Positions 2,275 to 23,939 of a stretch of 32,187 bases of DNA are shown here, one piece after another; position 1 is the first letter of the stretch; every line of letters starts with the position of its first letter. The notes under the pieces were generated by a model, which ran no database searches, had not been told where the DNA came from, and was given only the letters and a program-made list of their open reading frames with translations. The position numbers and the translations under genes were made by a program. The DNA is taken from positions 34,081 to 66,267 of the forward strand of contig PAOW01000027.1 of NCBI GenBank assembly GCA_002710015.1, given 5' to 3'. The DNA is from Methanobacteriota archaeon. Its GTDB lineage: Archaea; Thermoplasmatota; Poseidoniia; Poseidoniales; Poseidoniaceae.

Positions 2275-3123
2275 TTGGTTGACCTGTCAAGATTAGTGGC
2301 TAACACTATTGCCACCGACCGTTCTGGATTTAGCTGTGCTGTGATAATATCAAATAATTCTCGAATAGTTCATCAGATTATAGAGGAATTACCTAATGGT
2401 ATTCGGTCAGTTGCATTAACATCATCTTCCAACGTTTTCAATAAACTAAAAGAATCCGATATCGAGTCTAAGTTACTTGAAGATTCGTTATCATCTCAGG
2501 GTCTGTCGGTTTTAGTAAATTTACATGATCTTGTATTACAGGGACTTGGTGAAGGTAACTTCAATTCTAGTGACAGGATATTAGCAATATTGGGAGAACC
2601 GCTTAGTGGTTTAATAATCATAGAGGCCAAATCTCTTACCTCCAACAGGTTAGCGATTTTATCAAATGAACACGAAATCGATATTGAAGTATTAGCAAGA
2701 GTAATGGAACTAGCACGTAATATCGGTGGAAGAGGTCGAGAAGGACATGCAGTGGGTGCACTTTTCGCAATCGGCTCGGTGCCTAAATTACGCAGGTATA
2801 CAACAGCGCTTGTGCTAAATCCATTCAAAGGCCATTCTGAAGCCAGAAGAAATGTAATTGAGTCAAATAATCATGAAACTCTTTCAGAATTTGCATGGCT
2901 AGATGGCGCTATTTTGTTCAATAACAAAGGAGTAGCTAGTGATGCAGGACGATACGTACAAGTTCCTGCTGGTATAAATCCTAAACCAGGAGAGGGAGGT
3001 CGTCATTTGGCTGCAAGAGCGATTAGTCAGTTAGCAGAATCTATTGCTATTTGTGTATCCTCAAGTGGCACCATCACCATTTACTCAAAAGGGAAAGAAA
3101 AATACAGAGTCAGGCTTTCTTGA
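2275..3123 (+). CDS. dacZ: Diadenylate cyclase, DacZ-like (c-di-AMP synthase, DAC domain)
   Basis: C-terminal half reads as a DAC domain: EIDIEVLARVMELARNIGGRGREGHAVGALFAIGS..., WLDGAILFNNKGVASDAG (DGA motif), GEGGRHLAARAISQLAESIAICVSSSGTITIY (RHxAA motif). About 120-aa N-terminal alpha/beta region as in archaeal DacZ. TTG start. Confidence 0.82.
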   Translation: MVDLSRLVANTIATDRSGFSCAVIISNNSRIVHQIIEELPNGIRSVALTSSSNVFNKLKESDIESKLLEDSLSSQGLSVLVNLHDLVLQGLGEGNFNSSDRILAILGEPLSGLIIIEAKSLTSNRLAILSNEHEIDIEVLARVMELARNIGGRGREGHAVGALFAIGSVPKLRRYTTALVLNPFKGHSEARRNVIESNNHETLSEFAWLDGAILFNNKGVASDAGRYVQVPAGINPKPGEGGRHLAARAISQLAESIAICVSSSGTITIYSKGKEKYRVRLS

Positions 3124-3908: not shown

Positions 3909-4532
3909 GTGGCAAGTCAATACGAAAGAGAACTCAGATCGGTTTTAGCGGGAGTTCCTAAGGGTGTTGAAGCCGTTACGAGATCTTGTGATGCTATCGC
4001 TAAAGCTAGTGCAATGAAAGTCATAGATCGGCCATTTTTGGTAGTAAGAGCTGCTGGATCAGGAATGGAAGGTAGCGGAGATTTGCTCGCTTTGAGAGGT
4101 GACTTGTGTTTTCCCATAGAGGTAAAATCATCTAAGAAGTCCAAGTTGTATCTTTCTGGTAGAACATGGGATCAATATCTGGCCATGGTCTATGAGGGGG
4201 AGCGATGTGATCTGATGCCCCTTTACGCATATCGTTTGAAAGGGGTTAGAGGTGATTCGTGGAGGATATTCCGGGTCGAGGTAGGAAAATTAAGTGGAAG
4301 GCTGGGACTGTTGACAAGAAGAATACCAGCGTTACCCAAAAGCAGGAACGGCAAACCTTTCTTAGATTGGGATAAGGGTATGCCGTTACACAAGTTCATT
4401 GCACTAACTTGTAGAAATGAATCTGATAGTTCGATAAGAAGTTTGGAAAATAGAAGCAAAAGCCTTGCCTCAAAAACACAAAATGATAATCAAAATTCTG
4501 TTACCAAAATCATAGATATGGAGCTCCGATAA
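3909..4532 (+). CDS. hjc: Archaeal Holliday junction resolvase Hjc-like
   Basis: YERELRSVLAG...FLVVRAAGSGMEGSGDLLALRGDLCFPIEVKSSKKSKLYLSGRTWDQY matches the Hjc nuclease motif (E...SG...G..DL.A......IEVKS.K). GTG start. Confidence 0.85.
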   Translation: MASQYERELRSVLAGVPKGVEAVTRSCDAIAKASAMKVIDRPFLVVRAAGSGMEGSGDLLALRGDLCFPIEVKSSKKSKLYLSGRTWDQYLAMVYEGERCDLMPLYAYRLKGVRGDSWRIFRVEVGKLSGRLGLLTRRIPALPKSRNGKPFLDWDKGMPLHKFIALTCRNESDSSIRSLENRSKSLASKTQNDNQNSVTKIIDMELR

Positions 4533-5997
4533 GGAATATCATGAATATTAGTAAAAGCAAAGATGAGACACTTGATGCTTTTCTTGTGACGTGTTCAACC
4601 CATAATGGATGCAGGTTGTATAGTCCGGTTTTTTTACCCACATTTCTGATACCACTCATAGTTCCGTGAACAATATCCTTGAACAAATGTCCTCCGTCGA
4701 ACGGAATCATTGGGAACAGATTTGTGAATCCAAGCAATATGTTAACCCAAATTAGCCAAAACAGTAGATTTACTAGGAAAAGAAGCCCACTTAGGCCGAT
4801 AGTTGACGCTAGCCATCCGTCCCCTGAGGCAAGCATTTCCTCTTGTGCAGGATGTATTGCAATACCTTTGTATTCGAACGGAGTTACTAAGATCTGCAGT
4901 GTATTTATTGGAACAGTGATGACGTAACCAAGAGCACTAGTTTCAAAATCAGGGTGCGCCCAACCAGCTAGTCTATCAACGCCAGCAGTTCCTCCTGCTA
5001 GGTTTTCAACACCAAGGAAGGCATCACCTTTCTCGATATCCATACTATCTACAAGTTCTTCACTATATCCTAAATCAAGATAATGTTCATACTTGTCTGT
5101 TAGGTTGACATTCAGAGTTTCTCTTTGTCCGCTAGAATATCGCACAACTTCCATGGTGACAGTTTGGTTAGATGACAATCCTTCCATGACATTTGTGAAA
5201 TCTTCGGTGTCTTCAATACTGGATCCATTGATTGATGTGATAACATCCCATGCTTCTAAACCTGCTTCGTCAGCACCAGATTCTGCAATTATCTGACTTG
5301 AGTGGACCCCGGGATTTGCGGGGTCAAACTGCCCTGCAACTTGTCCAAGAATTATCATTAGGATGAATGCTGCGAAAATATTTGTTGCAGGCCCTGCAGC
5401 AAACATTCTCTGTCTTTCTCTTCTAGGTGAATTTGCAATCTCTGTATATTCAGGCTCTGCAAAAGCGCCTAAGGGGAGTGGTCCTGCCATTAGTAGGCCA
5501 AAATTTCTCACCCGCATCCCATGTGCTCTAGCTTGTATGCCGTGACCGTATTCGTGTATTACAAGACAAAATACAAACGCGATAATTCCCCAACCCAATG
5601 GAATGATGGGACTGAGACCGGGGATTGCAACAAGCTCTGATACAGGACGTGCTTCTGCTTGATTTCCCATCAATATAGCTGAAACTATTGCTAAAATTAT
5701 TCCAACAGCGACAATTAGCATAGCGCCCCAGCAAACCCATAGAGACACTTCACCGTAAATCCTCCAAAATTTCCTTGGTTTGGATACTTTCTCAAGGGCA
5801 GATTTACCTTTTTTCGTTCTGACCATTAGAACCATTCCGAAGAAAATCCTAGATGCATTCCATTCATCCAACTTTCCGCTTTTTTCCCAATATCTTAGTA
5901 ACAGGTACCATGTAATTATGAAAAGCAGTACTTCGGTCCAGCCTATCTCAACTGAAAGGAAACCGCTTCCCATGTATCGTCTAACAGCCAACCCCAT
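4510..5997 (-). CDS. Site-2 protease family (M50) intramembrane metalloprotease with PDZ domain
   Basis: VIHEYGHGIQARAHG (HExxH), internal PDZ-like segment (AGLEAWDVITSINGSSIEDTEDF), NLFPMIPFDGGHLFKDIV (third ligand Asp), many TM segments. The 597-aa ORF starts at 6303; ATG at 5997 (MGLAVRRYMGSG) is the more plausible start because the N-terminal extension overlaps the plus-strand ORF at 6047 and is Ser/Thr-rich and non-hydrophobic. Confidence 0.88.
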   Translation of the reverse strand: MGLAVRRYMGSGFLSVEIGWTEVLLFIITWYLLLRYWEKSGKLDEWNASRIFFGMVLMVRTKKGKSALEKVSKPRKFWRIYGEVSLWVCWGAMLIVAVGIILAIVSAILMGNQAEARPVSELVAIPGLSPIIPLGWGIIAFVFCLVIHEYGHGIQARAHGMRVRNFGLLMAGPLPLGAFAEPEYTEIANSPRRERQRMFAAGPATNIFAAFILMIILGQVAGQFDPANPGVHSSQIIAESGADEAGLEAWDVITSINGSSIEDTEDFTNVMEGLSSNQTVTMEVVRYSSGQRETLNVNLTDKYEHYLDLGYSEELVDSMDIEKGDAFLGVENLAGGTAGVDRLAGWAHPDFETSALGYVITVPINTLQILVTPFEYKGIAIHPAQEEMLASGDGWLASTIGLSGLLFLVNLLFWLIWVNILLGFTNLFPMIPFDGGHLFKDIVHGTMSGIRNVGKKTGLYNLHPLWVEHVTRKASSVSSLLLLIFMIFLIGAPYL

Positions 5998-6046
5998 TTC
6001 AACCTCATGTCGTTTAGTTCTTGTATGACTACCTGCTGGAAAGGGC

Positions 6047-6592
6047 ATGGACGATGTAAGTCCCGAGGTGCTTGAATGGATTCTAGAAGCCTTTGGAGAA
6101 GATCCTGAGGCATTATCAGTGTGGTCTGTTGACGAAGATATGGTACAGATATTGTTCCGTTTGTCTGACAAGGTCGTAATATCAGATCTCTCGTGGCAAG
6201 ATGAGAAAATTTTGGAAGAGGCTTCCCTTGTTGTAAGGCTCTCAAATTGGAAGCCAAACTCAATCCTCACCAGACGTATGCCTGATGGCTTTGTTCGATT
6301 CACTCATCGCTCTAAGAAAATAATCCTAGCGCCCGAGGTAAGGTCAGATCAGTGGGCAGCAGGCCTACTGGAGGGGTGGTTGAGTGACATGCATGGTGCC
6401 AACTCGGTCCCAAAAAGTAGAGCACAGAGGATTTCTGGTATCAAAAGGCAGCGTGATACTGTTACAAAATTAATCGAACAAGCAAATCTTACAACAATTC
6501 GTAATGAAATAGATTTTATCGACCACAGGTTAGCCACCGCAAATCGAAGGCTCACTGGTGAAAGACCGAATTATTCTTCCTCAGAGGAATAA
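6047..6592 (+). CDS. Hypothetical protein (181 aa)
   Basis: Protein-like composition; fits between the divergent S2P start and the convergent signal peptidase end. No family recognised. Confidence 0.6.
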   Translation: MDDVSPEVLEWILEAFGEDPEALSVWSVDEDMVQILFRLSDKVVISDLSWQDEKILEEASLVVRLSNWKPNSILTRRMPDGFVRFTHRSKKIILAPEVRSDQWAAGLLEGWLSDMHGANSVPKSRAQRISGIKRQRDTVTKLIEQANLTTIRNEIDFIDHRLATANRRLTGERPNYSSSEE

Positions 6593-8012: not shown

Positions 8013-8029
8013 GTGGGCCGAAGGCCCAC
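8013..8029. promoter_or_regulatory. Perfect 7-bp stem / 3-nt loop inverted repeat in the leader of the large surface protein gene
   Basis: GTGGGCC GAA GGCCCAC; flanked by CTGC (8009-8012) and GCAG (8035-8038), which could pair to extend the stem. Lies 22 nt upstream of the likely ATG at 8052. Confidence 0.55.
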
Positions 8030-8051
8030 AAGGCGCAGAGGCGATGAAAAA

Positions 8052-11000
8052 ATGAAAAAAGCAGTCTTTTTAGTCGCAGTATTTCTCATCTCATTGGCTG
8101 CTCCAATGACCTCCGCAGACGTTACAGAGACGCAATTTCAAGATGGTTCAAGGTCGTACACTCACACCTTTACAGGTACTGGAAACGGATTTGCGGGAAA
8201 CCTTTCCTTCCCTTCAGGTGCCGAGGTAACCGATGCGTCTTTTGACATATCTGGTGAGCCGTCATCAACCTCTTGGGGTAACTTATCAACGAATTCAGAC
8301 TTCGGAGGTGCAGGTTCTGGACAGTGGTCAGGTACACCCCCAGGTTTCGCCTACGGTAGCAGATCAAACATGGACGTTGGAAACGACCAAGTCAAGCTTG
8401 TAGGAAATCCAACAGACAACATAATTGGAATGGACACATCCTCTGACGCAACATCCACTGGAACGATTAACAATACGGGTGGATTCGCTGCAAATGGCGA
8501 TTTAGGTTTTATTGGTTCTACCAGCAAGCAGACACCGTTCTCCCTAACGGGATCAAATTCCAATTACCGCGGATTCATAGTTGCGCATGGAGATGAATAC
8601 CATTCAGCAACTTACTCTGGGACATCTATGTATTCTTCTCCGGTTGTAAAAAGATACAATTCTACATCTGGAGCATTCATTGGGTCCGCAACAATATCTT
8701 CGGGCACATGCTCTTATTCCACGCCCTTGTATTCCGCATATGATGCTACCAGTGATGGAAACGGAAATGTCTGGTCGGTATCCTACAGTTACAGAATTCT
8801 AATCAAGTGGACTGTATCTTCCTCAGGCGACTGGACTTGCCAAGGAACATACACATACTCTAATTCGTATTATCCAGTTGGAGTAGACGTAGATGAGGAT
8901 TCAGGCCGCTTATTCTTGCTAATGTATCATGCATCGTATCCCAACTACAATAGATACCTATACGAAGTGGACCCGACTTCTCCTACTTCGATAAACGGTA
9001 GTTGGTTACTTGGCTCAAGAGAACAGATGGGTTCGTCGAGTACAACTGCTACCGGACTCGTAGTTGACCTTCCAAGAATAACCACAAATGAATATTATTC
9101 TAGTTATGGATACCACAATTACTTCCAGATGAATGGTATATTTGTCGAAGGAATGGGCAAGAAATATTTCACGGGAGGAGGACATTATGGTATGGACCAA
9201 CTTGGTGATAATACGATTGGATTCCAATGTCACTACTACAATTACTGTACCAGCACTAATCGAAACAAAATCATCAGAGAAGGAAGCGGTGCTGTATTTG
9301 ATGATAGAACCCCCACATCTACAACATCAGTGGTAACCAGCAAAACAACATCGCTAACCAGATCAATTTCAGAGATTACAATTTCAGGTATTGTTGGGTA
9401 CATTCCTGCAAACACAAGTATCGAGATTGAAGTCTCAAACGATGGCGGTCAGACGTGGATGAGCGGTATATACAATCAAAAATTGATATTTCCAACATCA
9501 GGTAATAGCATCCAGTGGAAGGCATACCTCAATGGGACCAGCACAGAAAGCCCAGTTTTGGATTTTATCAGCCTAACATATTACATAAGTTACACAAGTA
9601 GTGGATATTTCCAAATTCGTTCAAATTATTACTCAGGAAACGCACCTGTGGCCATAACAGCTTGGTGGAATGCTACCACACCAGCAGGGACAACTCTCAG
9701 GATTGAATTCCAAGATACGTCTACTAAGACTTTTGCTTACAGTGGTGAATCAAAGACAATTTCTATGACCAGTGGTTACATTTACTTCTATGTTAGGATG
9801 TATGGAGGAACAGAAACTCCAGTTTTGGATGACATCAACATTGCTTTACATTCAGACGCACCTGAACAGGTTGGTATCGACATAGGTGGTGACGGTAGTA
9901 ACGAATGGACCAGTCAAGGAGTCTTACTTTCAACAACAACACAAGATGGTCCGGCTTTTATTACTGCATTCAATAGATTGATTCCAGACGAAGGGAATGG
10001 AACAGTGACGATACCCGTTCATGTTACCTCGCAAACAGCAGGCATAGTTGTTCTAGAGAGTTTTAGTATCACTTACAAGATCAATACAGTAAATCTCGAC
10101 ATTACCATACCAGATGGCGAAATATTGCATGAAAGAAATGAGCCTTACGAGGTTGTTACTAGACACATAGTAGGAGATGGCGATAGTAATTACATCCAAT
10201 CTGCATCCTTGTCATTTGCAGCCACACCTGCGTCAAGTGCGCCGATTCTTGAATGGCAGGAGGGGGACATTTTCCCATCACCTAACGACCCTGATGATTG
10301 GATTGAAATTGACCCATCATCTTACTCCATTCTTTCTGGAGGAATTTTGGAAATTCACTGGAAGTTTTTCGTAACATCTAATTTCCCAGACCAAGAAAAT
10401 GTGAAATTTAGAACGACATGTGTGGATACATCAGGAACAAATGGATTTTCTCCATCCTCAATCCAAAGCGACACTAGTTTGCGTGCCAACAATTCATTTG
10501 GATTAGGCTGGTTGAAGGTTAGGGACAACGAGGGAGAGATGACTTCTGAAGATGTTGTCGATGGTAGTTGGGTAGCTGCTGGAGAGACATTACATTTCCA
10601 AGGAGCTATGTGGTTTGCCGATTCAACCGATTCTCCTAAGGATAGTGCTTTTGATATAAGAATCTCACAAAATGGATACGTCGACTCTTCTTGGAGAGAT
10701 ACAAACAACATGAATGGAACATTTTTCATCTCAATTGATATGCCGGAGATAGACGTTGAAAGTGGCTTGACATATGAAATTCAGACCTATAACGAACGAG
10801 ACGCAACAATGGTCCTAGAGTCGAATTCTGACTGGTTTAGAACATACAAAGTTGATGCAACGCCTCCAGAGGCAATCTCTACAACTCCAGAAGAAGATGC
10901 CTATGAAGCAGCGGATTCAACTCAAAAAGTAAGCATAGGAGTCGCAGACGCTGTGGGCGATCCAACCGAACTGACACTCAATTACTGGGTAGAAGCAGAC

Positions 11001-13046
11001 CATGATCTGAATAGGAATGGCGAAGCAGACTCTGACGAATACGCACAAAAGGTTGTAATGAATCGAACCGAGGCAGATTTCAAGACATTTACAACAACAA
11101 TAGACCATTCACGCAATCCAAACTTGGGTAGAGTATCTTATTATTGGGACGGGACAGATAATGCTGGAAATCCGTTACATTACACTACCATGATAGATGA
11201 TCAGATATTTGATTATGAGAGCGGACCTGGTTTCAATCATGACGATGCAACATTCAGGACTAGGAAGGATAGTAAGGCGATATTCACAGGTCTAGATTGG
11301 GCCGGGCATAATGACGGAGCACCGATATATGCGGGAACCGAGCAATCCATTTCTTTGGGCCTAATCGATGCAAACACTGCTATTGATTTCGAATATATAG
11401 ACCTCATATTCGACTTTGAAGGTCCGGATAGGGAGGTAGATCAGCAGAAATTGAGTTATTACGGTGTTAGCGATACTTTCGCAAGTAACTCCCAGTATAT
11501 AGAACTCGCAACTTCTTCGGATATGGTCCAAACAACAAATGACTCAGGAATGCCTCTAATCTTGTTAGACTTTGACTTCATTATTGGATGGGATTGGCCA
11601 GATGAAGATATATCAGATATCGCATTGGAATACAAAGAACGCGGCAGTGAATTCCCAACAAGACATATAATTGCGGAACATACCTTTACTGTCGAAAACG
11701 ATCTTGTTATCGAGGCATCATCTTTCCAAGTAAGCGATATCAGTGAACCTAGAACAGGTCCAGTAGCAGACGGAAGTCGGGTAAGAAATGATGACAGGTT
11801 AGAATTCACTGGAAGAGTTGTTTACGAGGGAAGCAAAATACCTGCTCCAAATGATGCATCTATTGTGATTGAGGTATTTGATGGCGAAACGACATGGTCA
11901 GATGGGTCTTTGACAGACCATGGTGAATACTCAGTTGAAGTGCCTTTATCGCATGCAAAATCACTTCAATCATCCCCAACAAGGACCTGCTTAATTTCTA
12001 TTGATGGAATTCCCGGCTCAGGAGAAGATATGACCGGTCAAACTGTATCAACGACCCTGAGGGTGCAAGTAGATGACACGGCTCCCAGAGTAGTTAGTCG
12101 AACATTACCACTGAATGTAATCGATATCTCGAAAAACAGTGATTTAACCAGAGTCGAAGTTGAGTTTTATGGAACTGAGGATGCTGATTTGACAGGCTCT
12201 TCGCAAGTAGTTCACTGGGTTATGAGGGATGCTAGTAGAACTCTAACCTTAGGAGCTGGTAAGTCTACATTAGGAATGCAACAAGATGGTCAAAATGTAG
12301 TCTGGAGTGGAACTGTTGACCTTACAGATGGTGGAAAAATAACGTTGAGAGAAGGAGACTGGGTTGGATTTTATTTGACAGGTTATGATGCCGCTGGAAA
12401 TGAATTCCCAGTAGTTTCAAATTCCGAGGCAAGCCCTGTTGCAGAGATTGCTACCGATGATACAGATTTCGAAAGGCAATGGGTCAAATTAGGATCTGTT
12501 GGACCGCAATTAAAAATTCAATCAATTACCTTATCAGACGACCACGTTGCACCAGGCCAAGAGGTTGAGATTACGGCTGACATTCTAAATTCTGGTGGGG
12601 AAACAAATAGACAATTCAAAGTCGCATTTTATGCGGGGAACGATATAGTTCCATTCGACTCCCTTACCTTGAATAAAATAGGAGAGGGCCAAGTTCTACC
12701 GGTTTCTGTAACTTGGGTTGCAGAGGAAGGTGTAGACAGGATTCGAGTCAAAGTCGATCCTGATGACGTAGTAGTTGAGGTAAATGACGAGGACAACTCA
12801 GCAGAACATAGAATTGAGATTGTTTATGTTTCATACATGGGTTGGTTTGATTCAGTAAGAGAGCAACCTTTAGTTTGGATATTTTCTATTCTTTCGATTA
12901 TTGTTTTGATAGGGGTAGGAGTCACTGCTAATCGAACAGCAATCAGTCACAATGAAGGTTCTCTGTTTGAAGAAGAATGGGAAGAAGACGGGGAATACGA
13001 AGACGACGACTACGATGACGACGATGATTACGACGATGACTACTGA
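8052..13046 (+). CDS. Large secreted, membrane-anchored surface protein with CARDB-like domain and acidic cytoplasmic tail
   Basis: MKKAVFLVAVFLISLAAPMTSADV signal peptide; repeated beta-rich segments; CARDB-like LKIQSITLSDDHVAPGQEVEITADILNSGGETN...VDPDDVVVEVNDEDNSAEHRIEI; C-terminal TM (PLVWIFSILSIIVLIGVGVTA) and tail EEEWEEDGEYEDDDYDDDDDYDDDY. Track start 8013 (GTG) lies inside the hairpin; ATG 8052 is preferred. Confidence 0.82.
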   Translation: MKKAVFLVAVFLISLAAPMTSADVTETQFQDGSRSYTHTFTGTGNGFAGNLSFPSGAEVTDASFDISGEPSSTSWGNLSTNSDFGGAGSGQWSGTPPGFAYGSRSNMDVGNDQVKLVGNPTDNIIGMDTSSDATSTGTINNTGGFAANGDLGFIGSTSKQTPFSLTGSNSNYRGFIVAHGDEYHSATYSGTSMYSSPVVKRYNSTSGAFIGSATISSGTCSYSTPLYSAYDATSDGNGNVWSVSYSYRILIKWTVSSSGDWTCQGTYTYSNSYYPVGVDVDEDSGRLFLLMYHASYPNYNRYLYEVDPTSPTSINGSWLLGSREQMGSSSTTATGLVVDLPRITTNEYYSSYGYHNYFQMNGIFVEGMGKKYFTGGGHYGMDQLGDNTIGFQCHYYNYCTSTNRNKIIREGSGAVFDDRTPTSTTSVVTSKTTSLTRSISEITISGIVGYIPANTSIEIEVSNDGGQTWMSGIYNQKLIFPTSGNSIQWKAYLNGTSTESPVLDFISLTYYISYTSSGYFQIRSNYYSGNAPVAITAWWNATTPAGTTLRIEFQDTSTKTFAYSGESKTISMTSGYIYFYVRMYGGTETPVLDDINIALHSDAPEQVGIDIGGDGSNEWTSQGVLLSTTTQDGPAFITAFNRLIPDEGNGTVTIPVHVTSQTAGIVVLESFSITYKINTVNLDITIPDGEILHERNEPYEVVTRHIVGDGDSNYIQSASLSFAATPASSAPILEWQEGDIFPSPNDPDDWIEIDPSSYSILSGGILEIHWKFFVTSNFPDQENVKFRTTCVDTSGTNGFSPSSIQSDTSLRANNSFGLGWLKVRDNEGEMTSEDVVDGSWVAAGETLHFQGAMWFADSTDSPKDSAFDIRISQNGYVDSSWRDTNNMNGTFFISIDMPEIDVESGLTYEIQTYNERDATMVLESNSDWFRTYKVDATPPEAISTTPEEDAYEAADSTQKVSIGVADAVGDPTELTLNYWVEADHDLNRNGEADSDEYAQKVVMNRTEADFKTFTTTIDHSRNPNLGRVSYYWDGTDNAGNPLHYTTMIDDQIFDYESGPGFNHDDATFRTRKDSKAIFTGLDWAGHNDGAPIYAGTEQSISLGLIDANTAIDFEYIDLIFDFEGPDREVDQQKLSYYGVSDTFASNSQYIELATSSDMVQTTNDSGMPLILLDFDFIIGWDWPDEDISDIALEYKERGSEFPTRHIIAEHTFTVENDLVIEASSFQVSDISEPRTGPVADGSRVRNDDRLEFTGRVVYEGSKIPAPNDASIVIEVFDGETTWSDGSLTDHGEYSVEVPLSHAKSLQSSPTRTCLISIDGIPGSGEDMTGQTVSTTLRVQVDDTAPRVVSRTLPLNVIDISKNSDLTRVEVEFYGTEDADLTGSSQVVHWVMRDASRTLTLGAGKSTLGMQQDGQNVVWSGTVDLTDGGKITLREGDWVGFYLTGYDAAGNEFPVVSNSEASPVAEIATDDTDFERQWVKLGSVGPQLKIQSITLSDDHVAPGQEVEITADILNSGGETNRQFKVAFYAGNDIVPFDSLTLNKIGEGQVLPVSVTWVAEEGVDRIRVKVDPDDVVVEVNDEDNSAEHRIEIVYVSYMGWFDSVREQPLVWIFSILSIIVLIGVGVTANRTAISHNEGSLFEEEWEEDGEYEDDDYDDDDDYDDDY

Positions 13047-17772: not shown

Positions 17773-18897
17773 TTAAAGTATGTCAGCACCAATTTCAAGG
17801 TGGGATAATATGTTTCCACACAAATATAGCGACCCTGTTACGAGTATAAAATCACAATTTTCTTTAAGAGATTCTAAACCTTTGACGGGGTCTTTGATGT
17901 GTCTGAGTCCAGCGATTGGGTTCTCTACTCCAGGATATCTACCCCCTTGTGGTTCTGTCGTTATTATATCCACAGGAGGTTTTCTCAATACCATGCCAAC
18001 AAGAGGCTCTATGAATTCATCCATGTCATTTTGAGGAGACGTGCCAAAAAGTAGAGACCATTTCTCAGGCAGTAACCTTTCTATTTCAGGAATTGCTCTT
18101 AGCATTCCACTTGGATTATGAGCGGATTCAAGTAAAATCGATGGATTTCCTTGAATCAATTGCATTCTGCCTGGCCATTGAATAGGTCTTCGAACGAATG
18201 AATAACCAATCATAGCACACAAACGTTCAGCTAGGTCAGCGGCCTCATCCATGAAAGTCGATTTTTCTGGGATGTAGAATCTAGCACTGATCGCTTCATC
18301 TCGCATTGCATTTCTAACCCTCGCTGAGCCAGGGTCTCTGATTAGCATGGGCACACCAGGTCTCCAAATCGCCGCCTTCTCCCTAGCGACTTTTTCGATA
18401 GTATCTCCTAAAATTTCACTATGTTCGAGACTCACAGATGTAACTAAACATCCCACAACGTCAGCACTTCTTGTTGCGTCTAGTCTCCCTCCTAAACCAG
18501 TTTCTAGGATCATTATTGAAACTCCTGCATGTCTGCAAGCGACAAGAGAAACGAGGTATGTAATCTCAAAAAAAGTCAAGTCTATATTTAGATCCTTTAT
18601 CTCATGTAGTGCTCTATCGAAATCGTCACTAGAAATTGACTTACCATTTACTCTCACCCTTTCTTCAATGTTGACAAGATGTGGGGATGAGAAGAAACCA
18701 ACTCTATATCCTGCCCGCACTAGACCCATCACTAACTGAGCACACGCGCTTCCTTTGCCATTTGAACCAGCAACATGGATGCAGTCCATGTCTCTATCAG
18801 GACGATTAAGGGCTTCTAGTGCAACGGTTACTCTTTCCAATCCAAGGTCCATACCTTGTGATTTTTTAGAAAACAACCATTCTCTCAGTGACGGCAT
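17773..18897 (-). CDS. folC: Folylpolyglutamate synthase / dihydrofolate synthase (Mur ligase family)
   Basis: CIHVAGSNGKGSACAQLVMGLVRAGYRVGFFSSPHLVNIEERVRVNGKSIS and LETGLGGRLDATR are FolC signatures. Confidence 0.88.
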   Translation of the reverse strand: MPSLREWLFSKKSQGMDLGLERVTVALEALNRPDRDMDCIHVAGSNGKGSACAQLVMGLVRAGYRVGFFSSPHLVNIEERVRVNGKSISSDDFDRALHEIKDLNIDLTFFEITYLVSLVACRHAGVSIMILETGLGGRLDATRSADVVGCLVTSVSLEHSEILGDTIEKVAREKAAIWRPGVPMLIRDPGSARVRNAMRDEAISARFYIPEKSTFMDEAADLAERLCAMIGYSFVRRPIQWPGRMQLIQGNPSILLESAHNPSGMLRAIPEIERLLPEKWSLLFGTSPQNDMDEFIEPLVGMVLRKPPVDIITTEPQGGRYPGVENPIAGLRHIKDPVKGLESLKENCDFILVTGSLYLCGNILSHLEIGADIL

Positions 18898-18929: not shown

Positions 18930-21185
18930 ATGATTAGAAAACCACCCTCACTCTCGGTTGAAACTATGGGGGAGTCTACGTCTCAAGACCATATCCAGCG
19001 CGTAGAGCGTGAATTGGCGAAAGAGGACTCACTATTTCGCAATATGATAGAGCAAGCACCAGGCATGATCGGCATGGCTGGTATGTTCGTTGTAACCATT
19101 TTTTTGGGAATTTGGCTCCAGCCCTGGTTTGACTCAGCTGGACTACAAGCATTTGGAGAGTCAGGTTCAACACAAGCCCGCTGGATAGTTCTAGAATTGC
19201 TGGCAATTTTTGCGTTCACATTCCTGATATTGTGGCTAGCTAAAAAGCACCTCCAGCATTTCATAAAATACGGATTGCTATTTGTTTTATTCTTAGCACT
19301 ATGCTACACAACAATTCCTGGCGCTCACATTTTACTAGTACCAGACGTTGAGACTGAGCCGTTCGAATTTACAGATGAGATTGCTTACAATGAGGAAATC
19401 GTATCAATCAATACAGATGGGTCAATGATTACCCAAGTAACGAAATATACAGAGACCATGTATCATACCTTTGAGGTAAACAAGAGATCAGCCAACATGT
19501 CCTTAGAATGGAGTAAGGAGTTAGACTCATATCCCGGAGCACCGTTCTTTACTGTAACTGAGGGAATTTATGGAATTACAGTAACAAATGGGGCATGGAT
19601 ATGGTCTTTTGACAAGGAAAGTGGAGAGATTCTTAGTAAATATGCCTGCTTCGAACTAGAGGGATGGGATAACACATTGGAGAATTTGTCAGTCATTCCG
19701 GAGATAATTGAATGCGTCACTGCTCTGGAGATAGTTGAGAATGAGAATGGTGATTTTGGAGAGGCTAAGGGCGCCTTGTATATCACAACGCCAGAAAATA
19801 AAATTGTTAGAAGGAATACATTCCATGGAACGAATGAAACAGTTCACCAATCGAGGTGGGATATGCCTCAGTTGCAGTTGAATTCCGATAAAATTTTTCA
19901 CAACAAACAATATGACGAAGACAGTCTTCTTATTGCAACAGAAACTAGAGCTATAATGATTGAAATTGAAGAACTCGCAGATGCATACAATGAGCCCGGT
20001 CCCCGACCTGATAAATGGGAAGATCAGGTTAGTGTTGAATGGCAATATGAGGTGGATGACAACTTTACAGCATTCAACGTAATTACAAACCCGTGGGATG
20101 ACGATGAAGAGGTAATCTTAACCGGCACGGAGAGTGGAGAAATCAAAGTCTGGATTATTGATGACGAAATAGATCAGATATTCGAGGAAGAAGAACGCTT
20201 TGGCGGCGAAGATTCGTTCGAAGGCCCAATTCTGTCTATCAATAGTTTCGATTTAGACGAGGAAGACGGGGATGAGTTATGGATAACAGATGCGGATGGC
20301 GTCCATGGATTATTTTACGAATCTCTTACGGAATACGTTACAATTGAAATCGATTTTGAGAATGTTAGAGCAGTCTCATCTGAGGGAGCAACAATTCAGA
20401 TGGTAAAAGACGGCAAATGGAATGATACATTTGGAAATCCAATGATAGGTGCAGATTTCCATACTGGAGAATTTGATTCCGATACCATGTACAATAGCTA
20501 CGGAATACAGTTAGATGATACTGCGATTTTGGTAGGGTTGGGATTGGCAATTGTATTGATGGTGGCTCTAATCATTAGACCAGAGTGGTATGTCGTTAAC
20601 ACAGTAGGTGTTCTTGTTGGTGCTGGAGTAATAGTGATGCTAGGAGTCACCTTTGTTCCAACCCTGATTGTAATTTTCATGGTTTTAGCAGCTATCTATG
20701 ATGCTTGGGCTGTTTACAAATCAAAGCATATGCTTGATTTAGCAGATACAATGATTGGACTAAACCTGCCAATATTGCTTGTTGCACCTCAAGAAAGTGG
20801 TTATTCAATGCTGGAGGAAAGCGACAGTTTGCGACCTGCAGAGAAAAAACCAGAGAGCTCTTTGCCAGCAGATGCCAGCAAACATGTAAAGATGGTAAAA
20901 AGGAAAAAGCCGAAAGAAGCCATGTTTATGGGTCTAGGGGACGTTATATTCCCAGGAATGCTAGTATTATCATGTGTCAACTTCGTTCCATCTAACGGGC
21001 TTGCAGTAGGCCTAAGTGCGCTAATTGGAGGATTGATTGGCTATCTGGTTTTAATGACATACGTTGCCTCTGGCAGGCCTCAGGCAGGATTGCCTTTACT
21101 GAACGGTGGGGCAATAATTGGTTACATTATTGGTGGATTACTATTCGTTGGTAGTGCTGCCTTTTCGTTTGGTATTTCTTTGTAG
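18930..21185 (+). CDS. Presenilin-like GxGD intramembrane aspartyl protease (A22-like) with large inserted extracytoplasmic domain
   Basis: LAAIYDAWAVYKSKHM (YD, Asp591), MFMGLGDVIFPGML (GLGD, Asp671), QAGLPLLNGG (PAL-like). Three TM helices before and six after a ~390-aa soluble segment. An alternative start is ATG 18966 (MGESTSQDH). Confidence 0.82.
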   Translation: MIRKPPSLSVETMGESTSQDHIQRVERELAKEDSLFRNMIEQAPGMIGMAGMFVVTIFLGIWLQPWFDSAGLQAFGESGSTQARWIVLELLAIFAFTFLILWLAKKHLQHFIKYGLLFVLFLALCYTTIPGAHILLVPDVETEPFEFTDEIAYNEEIVSINTDGSMITQVTKYTETMYHTFEVNKRSANMSLEWSKELDSYPGAPFFTVTEGIYGITVTNGAWIWSFDKESGEILSKYACFELEGWDNTLENLSVIPEIIECVTALEIVENENGDFGEAKGALYITTPENKIVRRNTFHGTNETVHQSRWDMPQLQLNSDKIFHNKQYDEDSLLIATETRAIMIEIEELADAYNEPGPRPDKWEDQVSVEWQYEVDDNFTAFNVITNPWDDDEEVILTGTESGEIKVWIIDDEIDQIFEEEERFGGEDSFEGPILSINSFDLDEEDGDELWITDADGVHGLFYESLTEYVTIEIDFENVRAVSSEGATIQMVKDGKWNDTFGNPMIGADFHTGEFDSDTMYNSYGIQLDDTAILVGLGLAIVLMVALIIRPEWYVVNTVGVLVGAGVIVMLGVTFVPTLIVIFMVLAAIYDAWAVYKSKHMLDLADTMIGLNLPILLVAPQESGYSMLEESDSLRPAEKKPESSLPADASKHVKMVKRKKPKEAMFMGLGDVIFPGMLVLSCVNFVPSNGLAVGLSALIGGLIGYLVLMTYVASGRPQAGLPLLNGGAIIGYIIGGLLFVGSAAFSFGISL

Positions 21186-21194
21186 GTGAGTTGA

Positions 21195-22478
21195 ATGTTG
21201 AGTATGGACTTATTCCGGAATCAGGTGGATAAGATTCGTGATGATCATGACAAAAGAGGAATACCTCACGAAAGTATAGACCGGGTCTTACAACTTGACG
21301 AGGAGTGGAGAGGCGCCCTAAAAGAGATGGAAAATTCCCGCAGAGAACGCAATCAGGCTGCAAAAGGAATTGCAGAAGCGAAGAAGAAAGGTGATACTGA
21401 AACTTCACAAAGAATTATGTCGGAAGTGAAAAACTTAGGAGAAAGGATTGCAGCTTTGGACGAGAAGGCAAAATCCCTACTGGATGAGAGAGATAGAATT
21501 AGGATGAGAATTCCGAATCTTTTGCATGATGCTGTTCCGGTCGGAGATGACGAGGAAGGTAATACTCAGCACTCATTACATGGCGTAAAACCTGATTTCT
21601 CCTTTGAGCCTAGAACTCATAATGAATTGATTGAAATGAATAAATGGGTCGATTTGGAAAGGGCTGCAAAAATTGCTGGTAGCCGCTTTTTCTTCCTGAA
21701 GGGAGATCTTGCTAGACTCGAGATGGCTTTGCAGACCTATGCGGTAGATTTCCTTGTAAACAGAGGCTTCACCTTCGTTCAACCGCCAGTCATGATGAAC
21801 CGGCCAGCGTATGAGGGGGTTACAGATTTATCAGATTTTGAGACTGTAATGTATGGAATCACCCCTGACCCGCTTTACATGATTGCAACCAGCGAACATC
21901 CGCTAACAGCGATGTACATGGATGAAGTGATCGAGCCAAGTCTTTTGCCAATCAAGATGGTTGGTGTCAGTGCTTGTTTCAGGAGAGAAGTGGGGGCGCA
22001 CGGTCTTTCAGACCGTGGAATTTGGCGAGTACACCAGTTCACAAAAATCGAACAGATTGTGATTTCTCATCCTGATGAATCTTGGGACCATCACGAAGAT
22101 TTATTGCAGAATTGTGTCGACCTTTGGGATGAACTCGGACTACATTACGAGGTAGTAAACATCTGTACAGGTGATATGGGAACCGTTGCGGCTAGGAAGT
22201 ACGACTTGGAAGCATGGCTTCCTGGTGCTAATGCATTCAAGGAAATCGTCTCTTGCTCTAACTGCACAGATTATCAGGCAAATAGGCTCAAGATGCGTTA
22301 CAGGACTAGTGATGGTAATGCAGCAGTCCATACCCTGAACTCAACCGCAGTTGCAACAAGTAGAGCATTAGTAGCCATAATGGAGCAAAATCAAGAAGAG
22401 GATGGTCGTGTATTAATTCCAAATTGCCTAATTTCTCTTATGGGTGGTAAAACGCACTTAGAGCCATGTAAATGGTAG
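21195..22478 (+). CDS. serS: Seryl-tRNA synthetase
   Basis: N-terminal coiled-coil arm (RRERNQAAKGIAEAKKKGD...), class II motifs (FVQPPVMMNRPAYEG, ACFRREVGAHG..RGIWRVHQFTKIEQ, LNSTAVATSRALVAIMEQNQ). Confidence 0.93.
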   Translation: MLSMDLFRNQVDKIRDDHDKRGIPHESIDRVLQLDEEWRGALKEMENSRRERNQAAKGIAEAKKKGDTETSQRIMSEVKNLGERIAALDEKAKSLLDERDRIRMRIPNLLHDAVPVGDDEEGNTQHSLHGVKPDFSFEPRTHNELIEMNKWVDLERAAKIAGSRFFFLKGDLARLEMALQTYAVDFLVNRGFTFVQPPVMMNRPAYEGVTDLSDFETVMYGITPDPLYMIATSEHPLTAMYMDEVIEPSLLPIKMVGVSACFRREVGAHGLSDRGIWRVHQFTKIEQIVISHPDESWDHHEDLLQNCVDLWDELGLHYEVVNICTGDMGTVAARKYDLEAWLPGANAFKEIVSCSNCTDYQANRLKMRYRTSDGNAAVHTLNSTAVATSRALVAIMEQNQEEDGRVLIPNCLISLMGGKTHLEPCKW

Positions 22479-22505: not shown

Positions 22506-23939
22506 TCACAGTGTTTGGGGGCCACCAGCAGGCATCTCAGGCAGCATGAATACCGTATCACCACGCAGGCTAGGGCCTACATCGAAAGTAGCGAATATTC
22601 CTATGTCAGCTATATTATGAGATAGAGAGAACCAAGTTCTTCCGTATGCATCTACTCTAATGTCTAGGAAGTCGCCAAGTCCACCACATCGGTTGTAACC
22701 ACAATCTGTGACCGTATCGATAGGGTCATCGTCGCCGTTAAGTTGGACAGTTGTTAGCAACGGAGTTTCATTGAAAGCATCGGTTGCGTAAGTGAGGTAT
22801 GCGTTCCAAACCTCATCATCCCCCTCAGTTTCACCGACATAACCGAAGGCAACAGTCCCTGCGTCCCCTGCGACTACAACTGGGAAGCCTGTGCCGGACA
22901 GATTGATTGGTGGCGCAATCATTGTAGCGTTAGACCATGTGTCCCCCTGATCTCTTGAATATGACCAGTAAGGCATGTTGTCAAGACCCATCCACATGGC
23001 GTGAACGTTACCTTCTGTATCTACCTCAACCTGTGCTTCTTCTGCATTCCATGTATCAGCAATACCGGTATCTGTTGTTGGAAGCACATGCTCAGTCCAG
23101 CTTATTCCTGCATTAGTGGTTCTAAATACAGAGTAACCGTCTCCTGTGCATCCTTTGTTACCTCGGTAGAAATTACCATCGACGCTACCTACCAAGTGGG
23201 CAGACAGACCTCCTGAGTTGCAAGTTACAGGTGCTCCTGAGGTTTCAGGACCCCATGTAGCGCCTCCATCTTGACTTGATGAGCATAGTGGGTGAGGAGC
23301 ATTTCCGTTGATACAGAACATCCAGGTTGTTGGATGAGCAAATGCTGGCATATTGCTACTTGCGATCGTCTGGTGGTCTTGGACAGAATAGAGTTGCGTT
23401 GCAACACTTGGGCCATCCCATGAAACTCCGTCATCGTCAGACCACTCAACGGTCATTCCAAGCAAAGCATGCATGTCGAATTTCATAATTCGGCCTGTCC
23501 ATGGATCAACATAGATGTAGGGATCGTTGGAATTCACTATTGGTAGTAGTGGGTCATAGACATTCTCACAAGAATAGGATAGTGTGTCATACATCCCTAT
23601 CAAATCGCAAGATACAACCGCTGTTGAGCCTCCTGGCCCATTACCGTATGAACTCATCACCATAGTATCGGTCTGCGTAATTCCCATAGTCGGCTCAAAT
23701 GTTGACATGCCTATACCGTAATATGTGCCAGTTGCCAAAAAGGGGGTGTTTCTTTCACTAAAATCAAATTCATCATTGCCCCAAGCATCAACTGCATCTG
23801 GCATGTGATACCAAGTCAAGTCAGGTTTTTCAAAGTCCCAAACGGTTTCTGTTCTAGTGATAGGTTCAGCTTCTTCCTCTCCAAAACACCCAACAAATGA
23901 GGCACTTATCATGAGTATTGTGATGAAAATAGGTCGCAT
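22506..23939 (-). CDS. Lipoprotein with Asp-box/BNR sialidase-like beta-propeller
   Basis: Lipobox MRPIFITILMISASFVGC; Asp-box-like repeats SDDDGVSWDGP, SSQDGGATWGPE, RTTNAGISWTEH, SRDQGDTWSNAT. Confidence 0.75.
   Translation of the reverse strand: MRPIFITILMISASFVGCFGEEEAEPITRTETVWDFEKPDLTWYHMPDAVDAWGNDEFDFSERNTPFLATGTYYGIGMSTFEPTMGITQTDTMVMSSYGNGPGGSTAVVSCDLIGMYDTLSYSCENVYDPLLPIVNSNDPYIYVDPWTGRIMKFDMHALLGMTVEWSDDDGVSWDGPSVATQLYSVQDHQTIASSNMPAFAHPTTWMFCINGNAPHPLCSSSQDGGATWGPETSGAPVTCNSGGLSAHLVGSVDGNFYRGNKGCTGDGYSVFRTTNAGISWTEHVLPTTDTGIADTWNAEEAQVEVDTEGNVHAMWMGLDNMPYWSYSRDQGDTWSNATMIAPPINLSGTGFPVVVAGDAGTVAFGYVGETEGDDEVWNAYLTYATDAFNETPLLTTVQLNGDDDPIDTVTDCGYNRCGGLGDFLDIRVDAYGRTWFSLSHNIADIGIFATFDVGPSLRGDTVFMLPEMPAGGPQTL

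Follow-up and report, generated by a model that had tools for sequence, protein, structure and literature searches.

Presenilin is the catalytic component of the enzyme that gives rise to the amyloid peptides of Alzheimer's disease. The way in which presenilin-type proteases choose their substrates is still debated, and gamma-secretase complicates the question through its four-subunit complex. In presenilin 1, the transmembrane (TM) helices TM2 and TM6 make up the lateral entry, TM3 and TM4 contact PEN-2, and the outside domain of nicastrin selects sterically against substrates with long ectodomains (reviewed in PMC7248309). SPPL2 proteases work without nicastrin and have PA domains that influence substrate recognition (PMC12043953). 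In archaea, this type of enzyme is represented by PSH from Methanoculleus marisnigri (MCMJR1; PDB 4hyc, 4hyg and 4y6k; MEROPS A22 type).

We analysed a 32,187-nucleotide stretch of DNA from a Methanobacteriota archaeon of the family Poseidoniaceae (Ca. Poseidoniaceae, Marine Group IIa), referred to here as the window, which encodes a PSH with a large domain built into the TM3-TM4 loop. The window protein and MCMJR1 have in common the nine-TM GxGD core, in which the aspartates of the YD and GxGD motifs align with D162 and D220; over the 209 columns of the fold match the two are 30% identical. The TM3-TM4 connection, however, is about 15 residues in 4hyc and a 393-residue ectodomain in the window protein, which also has PLL at the PAL position whereas MCMJR1 has no obvious PAL motif (PMC2947513). 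Gamma-secretase shares the presenilin-type topology, the catalytic motifs and a protease accompanied by a bulky outside domain, but the window protein is one chain rather than four subunits, and its domain, which is inserted at TM3-TM4, does not resemble nicastrin. Across 21 genomes of the genus no nicastrin match passed the cut-off, with the control genomes also silent, and searches for Aph-1 and PEN-2 gave no match but were run without a positive control. In SPPL2a/b/c, too, the GxGD protease is covalently joined to a lumenal domain, which has an influence on substrate recognition (PMC12043953); the SPPL2 PA domain, however, is N-terminal and of another fold whereas the window insert is internal, and the topology of the SPPL catalytic domain is inverse. 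No PA domain was among the Pfam matches of the window protein and its relatives. The protein clearly belongs to a known family of proteases. We found no prior report of a built-in TM3-TM4 ectodomain in PSH in the open literature searched, although an earlier mention (e.g. Raut et al. 2021, archaeal GxGD proteases, Proteins 89:232) cannot be excluded.

Gene, membrane core and topology

The gene lies in an open reading frame of 751 codons at 18930-21185 on the + strand of the window, as originally described. Pfam SPP (PF06550) matches residues 533-738 (E=2.9e-51; 175 bits against a cut-off of 23.9), and the NCBIfam equivalog for archaeal PSH, NF041679, matches with E=2.5e-62 (211 bits against a cut-off of 125). 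The sole PDB sequence match is 4hyc, which reaches E=8.3e-43 when a 60-sequence profile is used as the query and which aligns to residues 46-127 (weakly, over TM1-3), 533-638 and 661-741. In the weak part, residues 46-127 correspond to 4hyc 9-88; the alignment breaks after residue 127 and resumes at residue 533 with 4hyc 103, which places the extra sequence in the TM3-TM4 loop. These comparisons show computationally that the product is an archaeal PSH, a GxGD intramembrane aspartyl protease (A22); its proteolytic activity is inferred, as there are no assay data. The true start is probably Met13 (window 18966) rather than the opening of the frame at 18930, since in many relatives 'MGES' is not preceded by any in-frame start. 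Some relatives retain the MIRKPP stretch, so this start is likely but not certain, and we take 18966..21185 (+) as the most likely coding range.

An AlphaFold2 model of the full-length protein, built with 60 relatives (pLDDT 81, pTM 0.64), has nine TM helices, and its residues 149-514 fold into a beta domain; at this pTM, neither the position of the ectodomain over the membrane core nor the distance between the two aspartates was derived from the model. A predicted N-terminal helix (residues 19-45) runs into TM1 (residues 46-70 of helix 19-70; 19065..19139), which is conserved with the short PSHs, and is followed by TM2 (residues 83-105; 19176..19244) and TM3 (109-136; 19254..19337). Beyond the insert the model places TM4 (530-549; 20517..20576), TM5 (553-574; 20586..20651) and TM6 (577-597; 20658..20720), with the catalytic Asp591 of the YD motif at 20700-20702 aligned to D162 of 4hyc. 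The basic, putatively cytoplasmic TM6-TM7 loop (20721..20933) has short strands at 616-620 and 664-668 flanking a disordered stretch. It leads to the GLGD motif (668-671; 20931..20942) at the start of TM7 (669-685), whose catalytic Asp671 aligns to D220. TM8 (690-713; 20997..21068) and TM9 (721-739) complete the set, the latter beginning with GLPLL (720-724; 21087..21101), the PAL-type motif present as PLL instead of PAL. All of these features are on the + strand. Among the 60 relatives Y590, G668, G670, D671 and P722 are invariant, and D591 is kept in 59, the lone exception being an ambiguous base. In a fold comparison the full-length model matched the PSH crystal structures 4y6k and 4hyg with a TMt of 0.55, and together with the predicted helices this supports, at the level of a model, a nine-TM core in the 6+3 arrangement.

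The distribution of charge across the loops follows the positive-inside pattern in all 60 sequences. The loops 2-3, 4-5, 6-7 and 8-9, putatively inside, contain a mean of 13.05 K+R, as against 0.1 for the putatively outside loops 1-2, 5-6 and 7-8 and the C-terminus, and the ends of the insert carry 0.18 K+R versus 8.35 D+E per 30 residues. From these loop charges, and not from experiment, we predict a presenilin-type orientation in which the N-terminus and the TM6-TM7 loop are cytoplasmic and the TM3-TM4 insert is outside. Most of the N-glycosylation sequons are found in the insert, with 1-11 per Poseidoniales insert versus 0-3 elsewhere, and the same genome encodes an STT3-type oligosaccharyltransferase homologue. 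This STT3/AglB match lies outside the window (G000:C11:6419-7609) within an open reading frame of 3235 aa, which is very large for an oligosaccharyltransferase.

The inserted domain

The insert comprises 393 residues (137-529; 19338..20516, +) in a loop of 7-25 residues in ordinary PSHs, has a net charge of -68 and carries 5 sequons. In some relatives PF06550 itself gives two separate significant matches within a single reading frame: profile positions 1-86 match ahead of the insert, and about 92-280 match beyond it. Modelled alone, the domain is all-beta with 27 strands (pLDDT 91.4, pTM 0.88), and its top 50 Foldseek matches in the PDB are all propeller proteins (E about 1e-6), of WD40 type and mostly 7-bladed, including WDR26, G-beta, Bub3, BBS7, BBS9 and the clathrin terminal domain. 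The likeness to propellers of the WD40, BBS7 and FG-GAP types rests on a common all-beta fold of about 27 strands; identity is only 7-14%, and no Pfam cut-off is reached. Because the TM-scores are mostly 0.40-0.47, the propeller type of the insert is not fixed. We regard the predicted fold class, propeller-like, as well supported, while the number of blades and their closure are not established. No sequence relation was found between the insert and any solved structure or propeller. None of the WD40, FG-GAP or PQQ Pfam profiles exceeded its cut-off in the insert, and all such matches were sub-threshold: BBS7 scores 17.4 bits in the window protein against a cut-off of 27, and weak matches occur in 8 of 60 members for BBS7 and in one of 60 each for FG-GAP and PQQ_2.

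The strongly conserved residues of the insert are mostly structural (Gly, Trp, Cys, Asp), and no obvious binding site or pocket-like cluster was seen among them. They include two cysteines invariant in Poseidoniaceae inserts, Cys240 (19647..19649, +) and Cys262 (19713..19715, +), which may form a disulfide. The juxtamembrane linkers are better conserved than most of the insert. Mean pairwise identity is 30% for the insert versus 73% for the core, and dN/dS of the insert, although above that of the core in most pairs, is well under 1 (dN 0.043 and dS 0.53 between the window protein and relative L032). We interpret the insert as a constrained functional domain with a fast-changing surface under purifying selection, attached to a nearly fixed core. 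Such variation on a conserved scaffold would be expected of a domain facing changing substrates or surroundings.

The original prediction, made from sequence alone, had proposed most of this architecture. Its nine-TM GxGD fold with both aspartates held (by profiles, the 4hyc alignment, AlphaFold2 and conservation), as did the PAL-like PLL (GLPLL with invariant P722), the propeller-like insert of ~390 residues between TM3 and TM4 (393 residues; AlphaFold2 and Foldseek) and the extracytoplasmic placement of that insert (loop charges, 60 of 60 sequences). The predicted structure contains the fold and does not refute the proposal, but the facing of the two aspartates was not measured.

Distribution, locus and origin

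A profile of the insert was found in 105 of 116 Poseidoniaceae genomes, representing 11 of 11 genera, and in all 21 genomes of the family with at least 90% completeness. Within Poseidoniaceae these matches always fell in the PSH open reading frame or its contig-end fragment. No free-standing copy of the insert that could serve as a Rosetta-stone partner was detected at E<=0.01 outside the PSH frame in Poseidoniaceae, contig-end fragments excepted; this search did not cover the genera that lack the insert. No viral relatives of the insert were found in the phage collection searched. A second PSH paralogue in some Poseidoniaceae, suggested by two PF06550 matches, was rejected, as the extra match is the TM1-3 half of the same frame; a PF06550 match on a second contig occurs only in the Thalassarchaeaceae genomes G023 and G285.

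The second family of the order (our code f2) is inferred to be Thalassarchaeaceae, since two families make up the order (PMC6461757). Here the long form occurs in four genera (g15, g17, g19, g22) and the short form in seven (g12, g13, g14, g16, g18, g20, g21). The original prediction had raised the question of whether orthologues across Poseidoniales keep the insert, and this held in part, with these seven genera as the exception. Both forms occupy the same locus, with folC divergent upstream, then PSH, and serS directly downstream. In the window the folC-like gene, a neighbour conserved in Poseidoniales, is at 17773..18897 (-) and the seryl-tRNA synthetase-like serS at 21195..22478 (+); serS is directly downstream in 98 of the 100 loci where it was found and is probably not part of the mechanism. 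One record carrying the Poseidoniaceae locus with full synteny (L039, PAYR01000044.1) is titled Flavobacteriales bacterium, which we attribute to faulty binning or labelling of the public record. Flagella operons are present in all Poseidoniaceae and half of the Thalassarchaeaceae genera (ISME J, PMC6461757). A link between insert and archaellum is unsupported, since archaellins also occur in the insert-less genera g14 and g21.

Several other genes of the window are of separate interest. A second intramembrane protease, of the M50 site-2 protease family with PDZ domains (4513-6303, -; E=1.1e-27), is encoded about 13 kb from the PSH gene. A 1677-aa protein (8013-13046, +) whose sole match is CARDB near the C-terminus is probably a large surface protein. 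The gene at 22506-23939 (-), which adjoins deoxyhypusine synthase, has a sub-threshold BNR repeat match and may encode another propeller, and that at 2275-3120 (+), adjoining a macro-domain gene, encodes a DisA_N/DAC-type domain (E=2e-11) and possibly a cyclic di-AMP synthase.

The TM3-TM4 spacer measures either 7-25 aa or 229-423 aa, with a single exception of 104 aa. Inserts of the two Poseidoniales families are homologous (between-family profile E 1e-9 to 1e-30), and those of Thalassarchaeaceae match one another with E down to 1e-57. In a tree of the TM core, Poseidoniales form one clade (support 99, starred) containing one short clade (98, starred), while the long Poseidoniales rows have a support of 92 that is not starred. 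Because monophyly of Thalassarchaeaceae is not rejected (p=0.48), one loss of the insert inside that family is the simplest reading, and its presence or absence there amounts to one clean switch. Assemblies of short-PSH Thalassarchaeaceae tend to be smaller (about 0.9-1.7 Mb) than those with the long form (about 1.2-2.2 Mb). This hints at streamlining, but it is no more than suggestive given a single phylogenetic split.

Beyond Poseidoniales, the sister family f3 (same class) and most other Thermoplasmatota families have a short loop, while families f8, f11, f18, f26 and f33 (and f28 in a fragment) carry TM3-TM4 inserts of about 230-375 aa that look beta-rich by sequence, with weak BBS7 and FG-GAP matches in an f33 member. 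In genus g102 of f5, another Thermoplasmatota family, a 104 aa insert at the same site (L188 from G425, open reading frame 4177-5328, -) matches DUF11 over the cut-off (E=3.4e-7). Homology of the inserts beyond the order is borderline (best 6.8e-8 one way, 0.012 in reverse) and is not claimed. When all long rows were constrained to group together, an AU test gave p=2e-5, but that constraint also removes the short Poseidoniales from their order, and in a thinner tree the long rows and the short Poseidoniales form one clade with a support of 89. The backbone of the tree is therefore compatible with either one old gain followed by losses or several gains. Under either scenario the TM3-TM4 loop has repeatedly tolerated large outside domains.

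Proposed role of the ectodomain and alternative readings

We propose that the beta-propeller-type ectodomain, grafted in cis into the extracytoplasmic TM3-TM4 loop, would sit above the helices beside the lateral substrate entry. There it would either bind the outside part of a membrane substrate, or screen substrates by how large that part is or how it is shaped, before the TM segment arrives at Asp591/Asp671. Being anchored at both ends between TM3 and TM4, the domain is well placed for screening in cis. Such screening would be a single-chain answer to the job done by nicastrin for presenilin and by the PA domain in SPPL2, without homology to either. The original prediction had likewise suggested a gate or recruiter in cis loosely like nicastrin; precedent exists, but this remains an inference by analogy without direct evidence, and in the absence of substrate, ligand or activity data we consider it as likely to fail as to hold. 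The insert appears unnecessary for catalysis, because seven related genera keep the same protease without it. A bolder reading, against which we lean slightly, is that in Thermoplasmatota the TM3-TM4 loop became a site for grafting outside domains, which are propeller-like in several families and a DUF11 domain in another. Substrates would then be gated by a covalently attached, rapidly evolving domain that has converged in function on nicastrin and on the PA domain of SPPL2, and that related genera without the insert can do without.

Two alternatives concern the architecture itself. The joining of two genes by an assembly or gene-calling artefact was raised with the original prediction, but nothing was found in its favour and it is practically ruled out. 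The same architecture recurs in a syntenic locus in >100 independent genomes that were assembled separately, among them single-cell genomes and one genome in a single contig (G002), and the gene shows conserved synteny and purifying selection. The opposite topologies of SPP and presenilin (PMC2947513) leave room for an inverted, SPP-like protein with the insert on the cytoplasmic side. This is highly improbable, as the positive-inside counts favour the presenilin-type topology in all 60 sequences, the TM6-TM7 loop is strongly basic while the insert ends are acidic, the insert carries sequons and two invariant cysteines, and DUF11 occupies the same TM3-TM4 site in another lineage. A PSH protease with a TM3-TM4 ectodomain is a very probable description of the gene product.

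The remaining alternatives concern function. The ectodomain might be a sensor of ligands or stress, an allosteric lid in which an outside ligand shifts TM3/TM4 and thereby activates or inactivates the protease. We rate this as possible but less likely than substrate screening. In its favour, the insert joins the two helices that move with PEN-2 in gamma-secretase (PMC7248309) and its juxtamembrane linkers are conserved beyond most of the domain. Propellers, moreover, often bind ligands. Against it stand the lack of a conserved pocket-like cluster and the fast divergence relative to the core, which speaks against one fixed ligand. Alternatively, the role of the domain might be structural or adhesive: through S-layer or neighbour contacts or oligomerisation it would position the protease in the envelope, with no effect on substrate choice. 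We rate this as conceivable but marginally behind the sensor. It would suit an acidic, sequon-bearing, fast-evolving surface domain, the unrelated surface-type DUF11 at the same site elsewhere and the seven genera without an insert, but two linkers graft the domain into the catalytic domain rather than onto a terminus, and it is retained in all Poseidoniaceae genera.

Because sister genera encode this protease at one shared chromosomal locus, some with the outside domain and some without, the role of that domain can be tested directly. A TM3-TM4 loop that accepts large domains would be useful for engineering and for fiducials in structural work. These results also put a name to a protease of very abundant, uncultured archaea of the ocean.
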